Below are positions 2,231 to 47,077 of a stretch of 48,685 bases of DNA, one piece after another; within the stretch, counting starts at the first letter, position 1, and each line of letters begins with the position of its first letter. A program made the translations under genes and the position numbers. Under the pieces are notes generated by a model. The model was not told the DNA's origin, ran no database searches, and worked only from the letters and a program-made list of their open reading frames with translations. Location: contig NZ_FOTL01000012.1 in assembly GCF_900114585.1 (NCBI RefSeq), positions 1 through 48,685 of the forward strand, in the 5' to 3' direction. Origin of the DNA: Methanobrevibacter olleyae. GTDB taxonomy: Archaea > Methanobacteriota > Methanobacteria > Methanobacteriales > Methanobacteriaceae.

Positions 2231-2950
2231 TTAGTTTTCAAAAGATTGTACGAGCTCTTTTAATTCAGCTACAGCATTATGATCAATGTGACCAGTATTT
2301 CTGTCTCCACCTACACAAGCAGCTCCTCTAACACCTACAACATCACAGCCAATATCATATAATGGTTTTAATTGATCTTTTTTAACAGAGCCTGCCAAAG
2401 CTACTTTTAATCCATAACTGTGAGCTTCTTCAGTGAATTTTTTACAATCATCAATGCTTAAGTAATCAAATAAAGTGTGTCCATCCTTTACAGCAGTATC
2501 TAACATAGCAATATCTGCACCAGAGTCTTTTGCTACTTTTGGAATATCCCAAGGACTCACTGCTCCAACCCTATGAGCATCAGCATAACCAGAAGCAACA
2601 ACAGTAGCATTAGGATTATTATCCTTTACAGTTTTCACTACATTTTTCATTACTTCTAATCCTTCTTCATAGTTACTAGGACCATATAATCCTACTTTAA
2701 TATAGTCTGCACCAGAAACCAATGCACCAATAGCAGCTAAAGAAACAGTTCCTGGTTTGTATGGAACATCTCCTAAAGTTGCACTTACAAGCATATCATC
2801 AGGAGTAATTTCCCTAATATCTTTAATTACCCAAGGGAAATTAGCTCCAAGGGAACCTTCTTTAGGATTTTTAACATCTACTATGTCTGCTCCACCTTCA
2901 ATAGATTCTAAAGCTTCATCATGATTTATAGGACTAATTAATAAAAGCAA
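2231..2950 (-). CDS. mfnB: (5-formylfuran-3-yl)methyl phosphate synthase, methanofuran biosynthesis
   Basis: Condenses two glyceraldehyde-3-phosphate molecules to the furan precursor of methanofuran, the C1 carrier of the first step of methanogenesis. The protein is 239 aa, the usual size, and is a TIM-barrel of the former DUF556 family. The residues reported as catalytic in the family fall at the expected positions: Lys27 in DVKNPKEG, Lys85 in YIKVGL, and Asp151 and Lys155 in LDTAVKDG. The start is TTG at 2950 with GGAGG 7 nt upstream; the protein begins MLLLISP as its homologues do. A TATA-like box lies about 50 bp upstream. It is a single gene with a long AT-rich region in front. Confidence 0.95.
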
Positions 2951-3000
2951 ATATATTCCTCCAAAAACTATATCATTATTTATTTTTTCTAACTTAATAA

Positions 3001-3011
3001 TTTTATAAATT
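3001..3011 (-). promoter_or_regulatory. TATA-like box for mfnB
   Basis: On the minus strand this reads AATTTATAAAA, an archaeal TATA-box-like sequence about 50 nt upstream of the mfnB start. Confidence 0.4.
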
Positions 3012-3490
3012 TAATTATGATTTTAATATTTTTAATAATAATTCTAAAGAATAATTCTAAAATTTAATAAATTAATTTAAATTAAAATTTATTAAAATTT
3101 GGCTTAAATCTTGAAATTTTATTAAAAAATTTAATAAATTATAATTTAAAATTTTTATAAAATATTTTTCATTAATAAACTTTCAGATACAAAAAATATT
3201 ATAAATATTATAAAAGATAATATTCTATAAAACATTTTAAATTATTTATAATTATATAAATAATATTATAAAAAGCTTTACATTTTTATTATAAGTTCTA
3301 TGATTTCTTAAGAAAATATAGAGTAATAATAACTAATAAATAAAAAAATAAAAAATAAAAATAAGTAAAAAAGCTAAAAAAATTAAATAAACAAAGTAAA
3401 AACAAAATAGAAATGAATTTTATAGAAATTAAAATAAAAAGGAAATAAATAAAAGAAAAAGTCAAATAATTAAAAAAATGAAACTAAAAA
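3012..3490. other. AT-rich intergenic stretch
   Basis: About 480 bp of almost pure A/T between the 5' side of mfnB and the 3' end of the LUD-domain gene. I see no gene, no RNA-like GC-rich block and no convincing repeat. Confidence 0.5.
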
Positions 3491-4717
3491 CTAATAAGGA
3501 GACCCTTTATCTTTAATATTGTCTCTTATTTTCTTATGTGGCTCTCTTGAAAGGCCCTCTTTTTGAGCTGTATTTCTTAAGCTTTCTATAATTTCATAGG
3601 TAGGAGTAAGAACTGGACAATTTTCAGTACACATTCCACATAAAGTACACATATATAAACCTGAACCGACACTGACTTTATTATCCTTAAGGTATTTGCT
3701 CATAGCAACACCACGACCACCTAAATAGCTAGAGTAACCAAATTCATTACCTACAATATTATAAACAGGACAACTTACAATACAATTACCACAGCCAATA
3801 CACCAAAGACATTCATCAATAGCTTCTTTTCTGCCGTTATCTAGTAAAATAACTGCTACTTTTTCTGCTCCATACATATTTTTAAGAAGTTTTTTCTCAA
3901 TATCAGCAGTTTTAGAAGGACCTGCTACAATATTCATATAAGAAGTTAAAGGTTTTCCAGTTGCATAAGCAGTTTCTAATTTAGCAATAGAAACAGAATC
4001 CTCTAAAGATGGTACTAGTTTATCAAGTCCTGCAACAATGATATGGAGTTTTTTATTTTGAACTATACTAATATTTCCTTCATTATGGAGCATTAAAATT
4101 GCACCATCTTCAGCAGCTATTGAATTGGAACCACTGATACCTATATAAGACTTTTCAAGAAGTTTTAAAACATCCTCTCTAACGGCTTCCATGATTTCTC
4201 TTGGAACTGAATTTAAATCTAAATCCATAGACTCATTGACAATATTTGCAATATCTTGAAGAGTTAAATGAGAAGCCGGCCCTGTTGGATGAACTGGATT
4301 GTTATCTTCTTTTTTTAATTGTAAAATACGGTCCCCTAAATCTGTTTCTACAATATTCATACCATGTTTTTCTAAAAACTCTGATACATTTATCTCACGT
4401 AATGTATTAGATTTAGATTTAGCAATGAAAACCTCGTTTTTATCAATATTGCTTGATTCAATTTCTTCATTAATCAAATCTAATAATATCTCTCTTGCTT
4501 CCATTTCATCATTTGCATAAAAACAATCAATGCCATTATCTTTAAAGCTTTCTTTTGCAATAGCAATTAATTCATTATTATTTTCTATTGCATCTTTTCT
4601 AATATCTATCACTCTTTTTTGAAGAGCCTGTATTTTAGGAGACTCAGAAAGAGGTTCAATCTTTTTCTTTAGATTATTGAATACTTTTCTCATTGATTCA
4701 ATTTCTTCTTCTTTCAT
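3491..4717 (-). CDS. LUD-domain protein with two [4Fe-4S] clusters (LutB/LldF-like)
   Basis: A 408-residue predicted cytoplasmic electron-transfer protein. Residues about 70-290 form a LUD domain as in lactate-utilisation LutB/LutC. Then come two ferredoxin-type cluster motifs: C306-x2-C-x2-C-x3-C316-Pro (with an extra Cys303) and C357-x2-C-x2-C-x3-C367-Pro. The start overlaps the stop of the upstream CCG-domain gene by 4 bp (ATGA), with a GGAGAT ribosome site inside that gene, so the two are translationally coupled. In bacteria LutA (CCG) and LutB work together on L-lactate oxidation. In methanogens the pair is widespread but the substrate is not known to me, so I give no gene symbol. Confidence 0.85.
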   Translation of the reverse strand: MKEEEIESMRKVFNNLKKKIEPLSESPKIQALQKRVIDIRKDAIENNNELIAIAKESFKDNGIDCFYANDEMEAREILLDLINEEIESSNIDKNEVFIAKSKSNTLREINVSEFLEKHGMNIVETDLGDRILQLKKEDNNPVHPTGPASHLTLQDIANIVNESMDLDLNSVPREIMEAVREDVLKLLEKSYIGISGSNSIAAEDGAILMLHNEGNISIVQNKKLHIIVAGLDKLVPSLEDSVSIAKLETAYATGKPLTSYMNIVAGPSKTADIEKKLLKNMYGAEKVAVILLDNGRKEAIDECLWCIGCGNCIVSCPVYNIVGNEFGYSSYLGGRGVAMSKYLKDNKVSVGSGLYMCTLCGMCTENCPVLTPTYEIIESLRNTAQKEGLSREPHKKIRDNIKDKGSPY

Positions 4718-40405: not shown

Positions 40406-42583
40406 ATGATTAACAATTTAAATAAAGTTGTAATAGTATTTTTACTTTTAATATTTTTATCTATTTCGGTTGTATCAGCACAAGAGAATACAAGCTCTGA
40501 AATAGGTTTAAATGAAAATGCTACAATTTTAGAAGTTGAAGAAAAAAATGATAATGCCAAAGTTGAAATAAATGATGATAGTGCAATAGCTTCAGAATCT
40601 GAAGAAGAGGAAATCAATGCTGTAATGAATGAGGATAACTTAAAAGGTTCAGGATCAACATTCACAGATTTACAAAAATTAATCAAAAAGACAGATGTTA
40701 ATGGTACATTAATTCTAGATAAAGATTATACTTATTCCGATGGTGATTCAGAGATAGTTATCGATAAATCTATAACTATTGATGGTAAAAACCATGTAAT
40801 TGATGGAAAATTAGCAACAAGAATACTCAATATAACTGGTGATTATGTCACATTAAAAAATATGAAATTCATAAACGCCAATAACACTCAGGATAATTAT
40901 GGTGGTGCTATATATTGGAATGGGGACTATGGTAACATAATCAGTTGTTCTTTCGTTAATAACCATGCAAGGCACTATGGCGGTGCTGTTTCTTGGAGTG
41001 GTACTAATGGTTTTTTAAGTAGATGTTCTTTTGTTAATAACCATGCTTATGATGGTGGTGCTGTTTCTTGGAGTGGTACTAATGGCCATTTAAGTGCTTG
41101 TTCTTTTGTCAATAACCATGCAACATCTGGTGGCGCTGTTTATTGGAACTGTAAAAATGCTTATTTAAGTGCTTCTTCTTTTGTCAATAACCATGCAACA
41201 TCTGGTGGCGCTGTTTATTGGAACTGTAATAATAATGGCGTTTTAAGTGCTTGTTCTTTTGTTAATAACCATGCAAGGCACTATGGCGGTGCTGTTTCTT
41301 GGAATGGTGCTAATAATATTTTAAGTGGTTCTTCTTTTGTTAATAATACAGCTAATCAATTTGGTGGTGCTGTTTATTGGAATGGTAATAATAGTTTTTT
41401 AACTTATTGTTCTTTTCTTAATAACCATGCTAATGAGGATGGTGGTGCTATTATATGTTGGTGGTATTCTAGTGGTTATTTAAGTACTTGTTCTTTTATT
41501 AATAACACTGCTAAGTATCGAGCTAATGCTATCTATTTGTGTGAAAACAATACTAATATATCTGAATGTTCTTTTAGTATTTATCGCCCTAAAAATACAG
41601 CAGTTGTCAAAGCTAATAATCTAATTTACTACAATAATAATAGTTATCAGGTTGATTACTATGATGAAAATGGTAATAAAATTCAAAGTGGTTGGATAAA
41701 CAATAATATTACTTTTTCTAATCTAGACAACGGAAAACACAATATTAAAATGATTTATAATAAAGATGGTAGCAATTTTATTAACTATTTGATTATAAAT
41801 GGTGATTCTTACCTAAGTGCCAGTAATGTTTCTATGTTTTATAATGATGGTACTAAATACACTATAAAACTAGCAGACTACAACAGAAACCCTTTAGCAA
41901 ACCAAAATATCCAAATAACTATTGGAAGTGCAAAATACACTATAAAAACAGATAGCAGAGGATATGCAACATTAACTCTCAAACAGAAAGCTGGAAAATA
42001 TACTATTATTGCTAGTTTTAATGGTAATGATGATTATGGTCCAGATAATATTGTAAGTACTTTAAGAATTTTAGATTCTCCTATAACAAAGAATAAAAAC
42101 CTTAAAATGTACTTTAGGGGTGGAACATTTAAAGTGCAAATAATAAATGCCAATGGTAAGCATGTTGGTGCTGGAAAGCTAGTTAAATTTACAATAGATG
42201 GAAAAACATACACCCGAAAAACAAACAAGAATGGTTATGCAAGCTTAAAAATAACACTAAAGCCAAAAACTTACACAATAACTATACAATATGGTAATTT
42301 TATAAAAACAAATAAAATAACAGTTAAACCTGTATTAACTGCTAAGAATATTGTAAAGAAGAAAGGAAAAACAATAAAATTCTATGCGAAGCTAGTAAAC
42401 ACTAAAGGAAAACCACTATCTAAAAAGAGAATAATATTCAAATTAAAAGGAAAAACCTACAAAATCAAAACCAATAAAAAAGGAATAGCAACACTAAAAA
42501 TCAAAAACCTAAAGAAAGGTAAATACATGATTTACACACAATACAGTAAATCAAAAATAAAAAACACAATAAAAATTAAATAA
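40406..42583 (+). CDS. Adhesin-like protein with polymorphic (GGAVxW) beta-helix repeats
   Basis: A 725-residue secreted protein, the only plus-strand adhesin. Signal peptide about 1-25 (FLLLIFLSISVVSA), an acidic linker, then residues about 160-385 with eight to nine units of the Chlam_PMP-like type (FVNNHA... GGAVSWSGTN). At about 470-560 there is an Ig-like repeat with the turn DSRGYATL, then two more Ig-like repeats to the end. The C-terminal 130 residues are very Lys-rich and have no TM helix, so attachment may be electrostatic to the wall. GGAGG lies 8 nt before ATG. Function as adhesin is inferred from architecture. Confidence 0.83.
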   Translation: MINNLNKVVIVFLLLIFLSISVVSAQENTSSEIGLNENATILEVEEKNDNAKVEINDDSAIASESEEEEINAVMNEDNLKGSGSTFTDLQKLIKKTDVNGTLILDKDYTYSDGDSEIVIDKSITIDGKNHVIDGKLATRILNITGDYVTLKNMKFINANNTQDNYGGAIYWNGDYGNIISCSFVNNHARHYGGAVSWSGTNGFLSRCSFVNNHAYDGGAVSWSGTNGHLSACSFVNNHATSGGAVYWNCKNAYLSASSFVNNHATSGGAVYWNCNNNGVLSACSFVNNHARHYGGAVSWNGANNILSGSSFVNNTANQFGGAVYWNGNNSFLTYCSFLNNHANEDGGAIICWWYSSGYLSTCSFINNTAKYRANAIYLCENNTNISECSFSIYRPKNTAVVKANNLIYYNNNSYQVDYYDENGNKIQSGWINNNITFSNLDNGKHNIKMIYNKDGSNFINYLIINGDSYLSASNVSMFYNDGTKYTIKLADYNRNPLANQNIQITIGSAKYTIKTDSRGYATLTLKQKAGKYTIIASFNGNDDYGPDNIVSTLRILDSPITKNKNLKMYFRGGTFKVQIINANGKHVGAGKLVKFTIDGKTYTRKTNKNGYASLKITLKPKTYTITIQYGNFIKTNKITVKPVLTAKNIVKKKGKTIKFYAKLVNTKGKPLSKKRIIFKLKGKTYKIKTNKKGIATLKIKNLKKGKYMIYTQYSKSKIKNTIKIK

Positions 42584-43067: not shown

Positions 43068-43170
43068 TTAAAATATTCTATCATTTCATTTTCTTTTTTT
43101 AAAAAATAGTTTAATATAAAAAAGTAATTTAGAAGAGAAATAATTAGATTAAATCAAATTTTCCAAAAAC

Positions 43171-43305
43171 TTATTTTCCAAACTTAAACATTCATTTAAT
43201 AAATTTAAAAATTTCTTATTTTCCAAACTTAAACATTCATTTAATAAATTTAAAAATTTCTTATTTTCCAAACTTAAACATTCATTTAATAAATTTAAAT
43301 ATAAT
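43171..43305. repeat. 45-bp tandem repeat, three copies
   Basis: TTATTTTCCAAACTTAAACA begins units at 43171, 43216 and 43261. They lie in a convergent 3' region between the tautomerase and the 43313 remnant. Confidence 0.9.
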
Positions 43306-43312
43306 CAAGATA

Positions 43313-43583
43313 CTATTTGAATTGCTTGTATATACATACACTTATACTAAAACCAATAATTTCATGATACTTTTCATTAAATTGATTTTCCAATTCATTA
43401 TTTGAATACTTAGCAATAGAATAATCAATTTTATCATGAATTATTTTAATAATATCATTTGATTCTAGAAACCCTTCTGAAGAGACTTTTTTAACCAATA
43501 AAAATTCAAACTACAATTTTTAAAAATTGACTATCACCATCTCTTTGAGTTCTAGAAATTGGAGAATATTTAAGATTAGACAT
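43313..43583 (-). pseudogene. Frameshifted small gene downstream of the HEPN-AP2 gene
   Basis: ATG 43583 opens MSNLKYSPISRTQRDGDS... and stops after 25 codons; a second frame goes on FEFLLVKKVSSEGFLESNDI... to 43313. Together they give an about 88-residue protein with one indel near 43510. The N-terminal part (KYSPISRTQRD) resembles residues 213-225 of the neighbouring HEPN-AP2 protein (KYKLSRRTQD), so it may be a degenerate partial duplicate. No domain recognised. Confidence 0.45.
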
Positions 43584-43601
43584 CCTATTCAGGCTAAATT
43601 A

Positions 43602-45371
43602 CTAAAATCTATTTTTAATATATTCTTCCCTTTTTTCATGAGCCTCTTTTTCAGAGGAAAATAGACCTAAATGTTTACCATCTACTTCAGCACTCCACAT
43701 AAATAAACCTTCTTCATATAAAACTCCTTCATATTTAGAAGATTTTTTCTTATTTATTGTAGTTTCATCCCTTTTAGACTTTTTAGAATTAGTTTTAGAA
43801 ACCCTATTTCCTCCACTGACTTTAACTTTCTTATTATTCTTAGAAGAAGAAAGCTTATTTCCATCCTGAACACTAATTTTATTTTTATTTTCATTTTTAA
43901 ATTCATTTCCATAATTTAATTTATTATTTTTAGAAATAGAATCATTTGATGGATTTAATTTATTATTTTTAGAAATAGAATCATTTGAGGGATTTAATTT
44001 ATTGTTTTTAGAAATAAAATCATTTGATGGATTTAGTTTAATACTATTCTTTTTAGATTTTTTATAAATTTCATCTTTAATACTAGATTTTGAATTAATA
44101 GATTTAACCTGTTTAGATTTATTTTCTTTTGCTTTAGCTCTTAATTTATCCAGTTCATCAAGAGTTATTGTTTTAAAGCCACCATTTACTTTAACATCAA
44201 CTAATCCATTAGCTTTTAAATAGTCTTTTCTTGCTTTAATAGCTTCATTTTCACTTCCATGAAAGGAAATTATTTGACCTTTAACATTCATAGACCATAA
44301 TTTTTGTATTTTACTAAAGGAAATGCCTCTTGCTTTAGAATAAACACCATTAACCTTTTTAGGCATAGGAACAGAGTTAATATAAACTTCTCTTGCTTCA
44401 TAAGCCTCCTTAGATGATTGGTAATAACCTAATTCTTTCCCACCATGTTCTGCTTTCCACATAAAAAGATTATCATCATAAGAAATACCTAAACATTTTG
44501 AATAAGGAACTCCGGGGTTTCTAATTTTAATTTCCTGATTATTGATTCTGTAAACTGAATCATCATCCCTTTCTTTCACCACTTCAGGAATATATAATTC
44601 ATTTAGAATCTGAATGATTTCATTGTTAGGGCTGGATTGCCTTAATCTTTTAAAGTCATCCCCATCATTAATAGCTGATTTAAGCCTAATTAAAAAGTCT
44701 GCATCCTGAGTTCTTCTACTGAGTTTATATTTAGGCCTTATAAAGTCTTTATCACCTGAATAGTTTATATAAAACCATACGCAAATATTAAAAATTAGTC
44801 TATGAGCTTCACTTGCTGCTTGTATCTCTCCACTAATATCATTAGAATTATCTTTAGAAAGTAAGGGATTTGATTTATTTTCTTTATTTTCACTTTTGGA
44901 ATCATCATTTAAATTAATTAAATCATTTGAACTAGAATTGTCATAACCATTAGATGAACTATAACCTTTTATTTCATTAAATCCAGTTTTATAATCCCTC
45001 AAACCAAGATTTTGCATATATTGTCTATTTGGCTGGGAATTAATTCTTTTAATTCCTCCAGCACCATCACTGTTTAAAGTATTGTGATAAACATCATTTC
45101 TTAATCTGCGCAGTTTAGAGAAATCATTTTTTATATTATTCGGTAAAATATTTGCATTATTTAGCTTTTCAATTCTTTTAAATTGATTGTTTTCATCATC
45201 CTTGATTCCTTCAAAAGTAAATATTGATTTAGTAATCTTTTCAGCTATTCTACCTGCAATAAGAATAGCTTCCACTCCATCTCCTTCAATGAGATTTTTA
45301 TCCATCCTTGCACAGTCAAGATAAATATCTCTAAATCGATTTTCCAAGAAACTAAAGCAAAATTCACCCAT
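43602..45371 (-). CDS. HEPN-like (DUF4145) protein fused to three AP2-like domains
   Basis: A 589-residue soluble protein of unusual architecture. Residues about 25-205 resemble DUF4145 (AILIAGRIAEKITK... then LRRLRNDVYHNTLN and, after an Asn/Ser-rich insertion at 115-180, AASEAHRLIFNICVWF). The RNDVYH at 91-96 matches the R-x4-H motif of HEPN RNases. Residues about 291-331, 344-389 and 546-588 are AP2-like modules (KCLGISYDDNLFMWKAEHGGK; KARGISFSKIQKLWSM; KYEGVLYEEGLFMWSAEVDGK, each followed by LGYF/LGLF and an EA-x-ARE helix). A repeat linker, NKLNPSNDSISKN, lies at about 445-490. AP2 modules bind DNA; the combination suggests a nucleic-acid-targeting nuclease, possibly defensive. Start at ATG 45371. 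Confidence 0.6.
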   Translation of the reverse strand: MGEFCFSFLENRFRDIYLDCARMDKNLIEGDGVEAILIAGRIAEKITKSIFTFEGIKDDENNQFKRIEKLNNANILPNNIKNDFSKLRRLRNDVYHNTLNSDGAGGIKRINSQPNRQYMQNLGLRDYKTGFNEIKGYSSSNGYDNSSSNDLINLNDDSKSENKENKSNPLLSKDNSNDISGEIQAASEAHRLIFNICVWFYINYSGDKDFIRPKYKLSRRTQDADFLIRLKSAINDGDDFKRLRQSSPNNEIIQILNELYIPEVVKERDDDSVYRINNQEIKIRNPGVPYSKCLGISYDDNLFMWKAEHGGKELGYYQSSKEAYEAREVYINSVPMPKKVNGVYSKARGISFSKIQKLWSMNVKGQIISFHGSENEAIKARKDYLKANGLVDVKVNGGFKTITLDELDKLRAKAKENKSKQVKSINSKSSIKDEIYKKSKKNSIKLNPSNDFISKNNKLNPSNDSISKNNKLNPSNDSISKNNKLNYGNEFKNENKNKISVQDGNKLSSSKNNKKVKVSGGNRVSKTNSKKSKRDETTINKKKSSKYEGVLYEEGLFMWSAEVDGKHLGLFSSEKEAHEKREEYIKNRF

Positions 45372-45463: not shown

Positions 45464-47077
45464 TTAATATCCTAAAATGTCTTTTAGCACATCTGAAGCT
45501 GGATCCATACCTTGTGCCCCAATTAATAATACCAAATCATCTTTATCTACTTTTTCCATAATAAACCCTAATGCATCATATAATTTTTCAAAGTGTATAT
45601 ATTTTATATTTTCATTATCTAAATTAGATAAAAATATTTCTTTTTCAAAGTCTTCAACAAAATTTAAATGATCTACTAAATCTACACTTGAAGATAATAT
45701 TAAATTAATTTTTCTATCATTTTCATTATTTAATTCATTTATAACCTCAGTTAAAGCCTTAGAATTAAAACCATTTAATGTTTCACCACGAGAGCCTCTG
45801 ATTGCACAAGCAACATAAAGTTCTTTTTTATTTAATTCATTTGCAAGTTTAGATGCAGCTTTAACTGTTGCTTTAATGCCATCAGGATTATGTGCAAAAT
45901 CATCGATTACAATAGGTTCCTCATAAAGACATGTAAATCTCCTTTTTAAAGGCATATAAGATTTAACACCTTTAACAATATCTTCTATTGGAATATCTAA
46001 AGATATACACGCTGAAATAGCTGATAAGATATTACGAATAAAATGATTTCCAGTAAATGGAAGCTCTTCATATTTTAAAATAGTCTTTCCACCATAGATA
46101 ATGGCCTTTTCTTCACTATCAAAATAAATCTTCTTATCATTTTTAACTTCAAAGCCTTCAATAGCTACTTTATCCATTGAAGTAAAGTAAGTATCAACAC
46201 CAGGATTAGCAAAATCTTTCATAGCAAAAACATTTTCATCATCAAAATTAAGAACCACTCCTCCCTTATTTGTGGCTTTAACAACCCCGGATATTTCTTC
46301 AAAAACTTCTTCAATTGAGTTTACAAGTCCAATATGATCCATTGCAACATTTGTAACAACTCCAATATCCGGATTAATTGCAGAAGACATGATTAAAGCA
46401 TGATTTTTCATTAAGTCAGTTCCCCAACCTTGTACTTCAGAAACTTCAATAACTAAATAATCAAATATTTTTTTATTTGGAATATCACAAATAAAGTTAA
46501 ATAATCTTGGATTTACTCCTTGATTTTCTAAAACTTCCTCAGAAATTAATTTAGCAACCATTGGATCAATTAGAGTATTAAATTCAGATTTTGCATCTGT
46601 ATTTGTAAACACATTATATCCGGCATTTGATAAAATATGATAAATTAAATGAGAGCTTGTTGATTTGCCATTTGTTCCACTAATAACAACTCTTTTAGAA
46701 TCTGGAACTAAATTATCAATCGTCCATCTTAGGGCAAATGCATTAGCAAATTCAATCCTTTCTACAACAATAACTGGAAAATGAAGTTTTTCTGCCATTT
46801 CTAATGCATCTTCTTTAGGATTTAAAGTGATTAAACAAGCTACATTTTTATCATTTGCTATTTCAACACCTTTTCCATTAATCCAATGTCTTATTACAAT
46901 ATCCCCTTCTTGAGCTTCATTTAAAGTTTCAAATATTCCTGTAAACCCAGTAGAAGGTTTATAATCATTAGATCCATAGATTACCCCTCCAATTGAATCT
47001 GCAAGTTGATTAATAGAAAAGGTATTTAAAGAAGATACAGAATCTGCTAATTCATTTAAAAAATATGGTTTTGACAT
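45464..47077 (-). CDS. Mur ligase family enzyme (pseudomurein synthesis)
   Basis: An ATP-dependent amide ligase of 537 residues with the three-domain Mur layout. N-terminal domain about 1-125; central ATPase about 130-370 with the P-loop VVISGTNGKSTSSH, a conserved Glu in EVSEVQGWG and SSAINPDIGVVTNVAMDHIG; C-terminal domain from about 380 with FTCLYEEPIVIDDFAHNPDGIKAT, as in MurC/MurE. In Methanobacteriales such enzymes build the peptide part of pseudomurein. It follows mraY-like 90 bp downstream on the same strand, supporting the same pathway. Which residue it adds is not readable. Confidence 0.85.
   Translation of the reverse strand: MSKPYFLNELADSVSSLNTFSINQLADSIGGVIYGSNDYKPSTGFTGIFETLNEAQEGDIVIRHWINGKGVEIANDKNVACLITLNPKEDALEMAEKLHFPVIVVERIEFANAFALRWTIDNLVPDSKRVVISGTNGKSTSSHLIYHILSNAGYNVFTNTDAKSEFNTLIDPMVAKLISEEVLENQGVNPRLFNFICDIPNKKIFDYLVIEVSEVQGWGTDLMKNHALIMSSAINPDIGVVTNVAMDHIGLVNSIEEVFEEISGVVKATNKGGVVLNFDDENVFAMKDFANPGVDTYFTSMDKVAIEGFEVKNDKKIYFDSEEKAIIYGGKTILKYEELPFTGNHFIRNILSAISACISLDIPIEDIVKGVKSYMPLKRRFTCLYEEPIVIDDFAHNPDGIKATVKAASKLANELNKKELYVACAIRGSRGETLNGFNSKALTEVINELNNENDRKINLILSSSVDLVDHLNFVEDFEKEIFLSNLDNENIKYIHFEKLYDALGFIMEKVDKDDLVLLIGAQGMDPASDVLKDILGY

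Follow-up and report, generated by a model that had tools for sequence, protein, structure and literature searches.

Does a gene that joins a HEPN domain to three AP2-like modules in a methanogen encode a DNA-sensing RNase effector, as an earlier note on this DNA had proposed, or does it belong to the ordinary equipment of the cell? HEPN domains of the DUF4145 type are almost automatically taken for toxins or for components of restriction systems, and the group of organisms that carries this gene includes major rumen methane producers. The gene occupies positions 43602-45371 on the minus strand of the window, i.e. the whole stretch of 48,685 nucleotides that was analysed, which lies on contig 12 of a Methanobrevibacter olleyae genome totalling 2.12 Mb. 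The ORF begins with ATG, is intact and encodes 589 aa; promoter and terminator scans gave scores at or below chance.

That the N-terminal domain is a HEPN domain of the DUF4145/HsdR-N-terminal type holds on the basis of its sequence, its predicted fold and an invariant set of E, R, N and H residues. The NCBIfam HsdR model PRK11448 matches aa 5-166 (E = 2e-13), as well as all 29 aligned homologous N-termini, while Pfam DUF4145 gives an E of 0.001 and 19.5 bits against a gathering score of 23.1, which the orthologue L059 passes with 25.8 bits. A PDB sequence search with this half of the protein returned no matches. In the AlphaFold model, helices 14-28, 32-54, 63-72, 78-100 and 176-204, all with pLDDT >90, form an all-helical HEPN fold, of which helices 1-3 (aa 1-100) are encoded at 45072..45371. 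Furthermore, the leading Foldseek matches in the PDB are HEPN proteins, with a best probability of 0.98 and a target TM-score of 0.54, at an E of only about 1.

The HEPN active site has been described as an Rx4-6H motif with a polar residue after the arginine, at the end of helix 3, assisted by an acidic Ex3[KR] motif in helix 2 (PMC3710099). All these elements are found here: R91-N92-D-V-Y-H96 (45084..45101) lies near the end of helix 78-100, ahead of the long loop that leads into the last helix, and E44 (45240..45242), with K48 at +4, lies within the predicted helix 32-54. When aa 1-205 are shuffled, 29% of the resulting sequences contain an R-x4-6-H string, and 7% contain one whose arginine is followed by a polar residue; the string being so cheap, the argument for HEPN is carried by conservation and position. 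E44, K48, R91, N92 and H96 are invariant in the 17 aligned orthologues, and the R91, N92 and H96 motif is also present in the truncated copy of genome G010. When 12 further homologues are added to give 29 domains, E44 and H96 remain invariant, and 27 of the domains retain R91. The reading of RNDVYH as a HEPN signature with R91 and H96 at its ends, made beforehand from the letters alone, is thus borne out by the homologues.

Although the HEPN fold that had been placed at aa 25-205 is recovered by both AlphaFold and Foldseek, the domain is interrupted. In the loop from helix 3 to helix 4, aa 101-175 (44847..45071) form a variable, low-complexity and probably disordered insert, which shows 53-56% identity versus 90-94% for the HEPN core, is missing from the paralogues and is modelled with pLDDT <50 (aa 108-174 appear disordered). 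The last HEPN helix follows at aa 176-205 (44757..44846) and is in turn followed by a conserved helical middle region, aa 206-265 (44577..44756), with predicted helices at 222-236, 238-246 and 251-259 and 88-92% identity to the orthologues L012, L014 and L017; family searches with this region gave no match.

The C-terminal half contains the three AP2-like modules that had been claimed for it, at aa 289-334 (44370..44507), 343-388 (44208..44345) and 541-588 (43608..43751), each predicted as a beta-beta-beta-alpha unit with pLDDT of about 85-95. Pfam AP2 does not match the protein, and a PDB sequence search with the modules gave weak AP2 matches only. A profile was also compared that had been built from 15 modules of seven zinc-ribbon relatives, the target and its orthologues being left out: it detects all three modules, at 25-31 bits each and 77.5 bits in total, the real protein scoring E 2e-24 while 4 of 500 shuffles reach E 0.1. 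Four of the zinc-ribbon relatives match Pfam AP2 at 4e-7 to 2e-6, under the curated cut-off. Modules 2 and 3 are separated by a Lys-rich disordered linker (aa 421-538, 43758..44111; net charge +11 to +24), in which the repeats noticed earlier correspond to a 39-bp tandem repeat of 3.3 copies at 43914-44040. In the orthologue L012 (G014:C25) a stop codon falls within module 3, so that the module may be missing there, unless this is a sequencing error.

AP2 domains usually bind DNA, and this speaks for the proposal that the modules detect foreign or damaged DNA, upon which the toxicity of the HEPN domain would be released and the cell shut down; the HsdR/DUF4145 type of that domain, and its sister fusions with DptF-like, BrxL-like and UvrD-nuclease modules, point the same way. 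The charges of the modules, however, fit such sensing poorly. Among the orthologues they are steady: module 1 is acidic and module 3 near neutral, and basic charge is found in module 2 and the linker; for the AP2 contact face the figures are net charges only, of -2 to -5 for module 1, +3 to +9 for module 2 and around zero (about -2 to +1) for module 3. This pattern does not specify DNA and casts doubt on the idea that all three modules read DNA, while module 2 and the linker are likely to contact nucleic acid. Moreover, the top structural matches of the module half (Foldseek E 0.09-0.5) are chains of the Toxoplasma mitoribosome, two of them named AP2IX-6, that is, proteins of a kind that binds rRNA. 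One published structure has Toxoplasma mitoribosomal AP2 proteins bound to rRNA; in the other, the rRNA is described as contacted mainly by extensions and not by the canonical AP2 face.

The distribution of the gene argues further against a defence effector. Full-length orthologues were found in 17 of the 19 genomes of the genus; in an eighteenth, 64% complete, the copy is cut by the contig end, and the nineteenth, 62% complete, holds a giant paralogue only. In a family-level search of 139 genomes the architecture occurred in none of the 120 other Methanobacteriaceae, four of which match the N-terminal part only. The whole gene evolves under strong purifying selection, with dN/dS around 0.1 (0.07-0.15 in most pairs, 0.42 in the deep pair L059/L060), and the HEPN core is at 0.02-0.07 in 10 of 12 pairs. 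The locus is mostly fixed as well: in the main clade the order, where the contig is long enough, is pMraY, Mur ligase, HEPN-AP2, zinc-ribbon, PGA_cap, dCTP deaminase and HisG, with additional ORFs intervening in some genomes, and the pseudomurein Mur ligase is the conserved upstream neighbour in this window too (45464..47077, minus strand). In two deeper genomes the gene adjoins PGA_cap, with the Mur ligase located on a different contig, while other genera keep the pMraY-Mur ligase pair without the HEPN-AP2 gene. A mobile-element origin of the gene was rejected in view of this synteny.

Searches of phages, plasmids and IMG/VR with the protein gave no relatives, direct PADLOC, PHROGs and Pfam scans made no AP2 or defence call, and no defence genes lie beside the gene. 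Anti-phage defence genes would be expected to be patchy, located in islands and matched by a known model; this one is core, mostly syntenic and free of any PADLOC match, and its behaviour is that of a stable core gene which evolves slowly within one methanogen group, not that of a mobile defence toxin.

The only conserved neighbour that might serve as an antitoxin leads to the same view. In most relatives a zinc-ribbon gene of about 206 aa, with Zn_Ribbon_1 in the intact copies, comes after the HEPN-AP2 gene. Here a remnant of it was located by tblastn with three orthologues at 43152-43589 (-): the ribbon cysteines are lost, a stop lies inside and the middle is missing, and the HEPN-AP2 gene is intact. 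Since the sole conserved neighbour has decayed in this genome, there is no obligate antitoxin, nor does an MNT antitoxin gene lie next to the HEPN-AP2 gene. A toxin-antitoxin pair with the downstream gene was considered and rejected, that gene being a pseudogene here. Taken with the acidic module 1, these findings leave the DNA-sensing effector of the earlier note distinctly unlikely. Between the zinc-ribbon remnant and PGA_cap sit a tautomerase gene and a gene for an adhesin-like protein that contains Chlam_PMP and Ig-like repeats (40406-42583, +); no adhesin-like gene was seen at that position in the relatives examined.

The neighbourhood of pMraY/Mur ligase and PGA_cap genes also suggests a DNA-binding regulator or nucleoid factor, in which HEPN would be a non-catalytic dimeriser and the AP2 modules would occupy chromosomal sites, perhaps near the envelope genes. 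MtlR provides a precedent for a HEPN regulator, and the zinc-ribbon AP2 relatives look regulatory. Yet E44, R91, N92 and H96 are all invariant, and a pure dimeriser would not need them, so that this reading is unlikely.

Other proteins carry the same type of HEPN domain and allow a comparison of the site. R91 is kept in all orthologues and in all giant HEPN-AP2 paralogues, whereas in fusions with DptF-like, UvrD-like and BrxL-like modules it is often G, C or A; since the arginine is kept here and often replaced there, the HEPN site appears, as far as sequence comparison can tell, to be under selection in the HEPN-AP2 proteins. The giant paralogues, presumably of M. ruminantium M1 and its relatives, measure 1385-1562 aa; their AP2-like modules number about eight, some of them highly diverged, and their middle parts are long and acidic (L044 2389-7077, L045 2074-6231 and L046 751-3348, the last ending at the contig end). 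The domain also occurs on proteins that we take to be DptF-like, a label recognised from the sequence with no database match behind the name, and, in contig 18 of the M. olleyae genome itself, on a protein of 329 aa that has a probable membrane segment, an Ada-type zinc site and the motif RNAEVH (L048 4791-5780). An RtcB RNA ligase gene (2301-3758) lies close to the latter; HEPN enzymes leave 2',3'-cyclic ends, which makes this proximity curious.

Further arrangements were observed in other contigs. In L112 (5811-9443) a HEPN-like domain that has lost the arginine (GNIAAHH) is fused to a DpnI_C winged helix together with a complete Lon-like ATPase of the BrxL type; in L111 (2272-6789), with RNDDRH kept, to a UvrD-type helicase with a PD-(D/E)XK nuclease match; and in L114 (750-4916), with the motif GNKSVH, to a UvrD-type helicase. 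In L116 (4423-7405) the neighbour of a HEPN protein (RNEDTH) consists of AP2-like repeats in tandem and has a DpnI_C helix-turn-helix; the two may represent the HEPN-AP2 pairing in split form.

Such recurrence on HsdR, DptF-like, BrxL-like and UvrD-nuclease proteins would fit an accessory subunit of a DNA-processing machine, the HsdR-type domain docking on a partner and the AP2 modules tethering it to DNA. A constant partner is lacking, however, as the one conserved neighbour is lost here and other genes flank this one in the deep branch, and we regard this arrangement as improbable. As numerous DUF4145 relatives belong to restriction, BREX-like or DptF-like proteins, a history in defence is nevertheless likely for this HEPN domain, judging from its relatives.

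The explanation that we prefer, tentatively, is a clade-core HEPN endoribonuclease whose AP2 modules and basic linker hold a nucleic-acid substrate, probably RNA, in a role that is more likely housekeeping or regulatory. HEPN domains dimerise and cut RNA independently of metal, and the N-terminal domain would probably do likewise. The AP2-like modules, together with the basic linker, would probably hold the substrate; because the activity of the N-terminal domain would be directed at RNA and some AP2 domains do contact RNA, RNA may be somewhat likelier than DNA, a weak preference. From distribution, synteny and selection we infer a housekeeping or regulatory role, for example in RNA processing, as more likely than abortive defence; catalysis and RNA as substrate are likewise put forward by inference. 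The most specific version, in which an archaeal HEPN ribonuclease with a housekeeping role would recruit its RNA through the AP2 modules, is somewhat unlikely. If true, it would apparently be the first RNA-binding prokaryotic AP2 protein and would give DUF4145 HEPN domains a non-toxic core role; retention in nearly the whole genus, strong selection, an intact active site and AP2 modules would together make a clear case of domestication, and the protein could reveal whether AP2 modules of prokaryotes recognise RNA in addition to DNA.

With both folds predicted, that of HEPN and the AP2-like sheet plus helix, the protein combines known folds in a new architecture. The fusion appears undescribed, as had been supposed: a literature search found no paper combining DUF4145 and AP2, and the list of DUF4145 partners in PMC3710099 does not include AP2. 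Since the contig scan used the full-length protein and thus reaches close relatives only, a similar fusion elsewhere, e.g. in bacteria, is possible.

Compared with known systems, the protein shares with the DUF4145-like HEPN domains (PF13643; HsdR N-terminus, PRK11448) its sequence, helical fold, Rx4H motif with polar residue and Ex3K in helix 2, but those domains are known to be joined to helicases, nucleases, TIR and similar domains, whereas this one is joined to AP2-like modules and has a long insert after helix 3. HepT of MntA-HepT (PDB 7bxo, 5yep) is the best structural match and has the same Rx4H site, although it is a small stand-alone toxin with an MNT antitoxin. The modules have the three strands and helix, the invariant Trp and the helix EA of AP2 (PF00847) and of the prokaryotic zinc-ribbon AP2 proteins (L054, L126, L127), yet Pfam does not detect them, the first of them is acidic, and an attached nuclease, HNH for example, is absent. 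The Toxoplasma mitoribosomal AP2 proteins (AP2IX-6 and others), which give the top structural matches to the module half, are eukaryotic ribosome components without HEPN and a precedent for RNA contact only. Finally, the giant paralogues have the same type of HEPN domain followed by AP2-like modules, but these are arranged in two groups, the middle is acidic, the motif is RNIATH and the HEPN domain is free of the insert.
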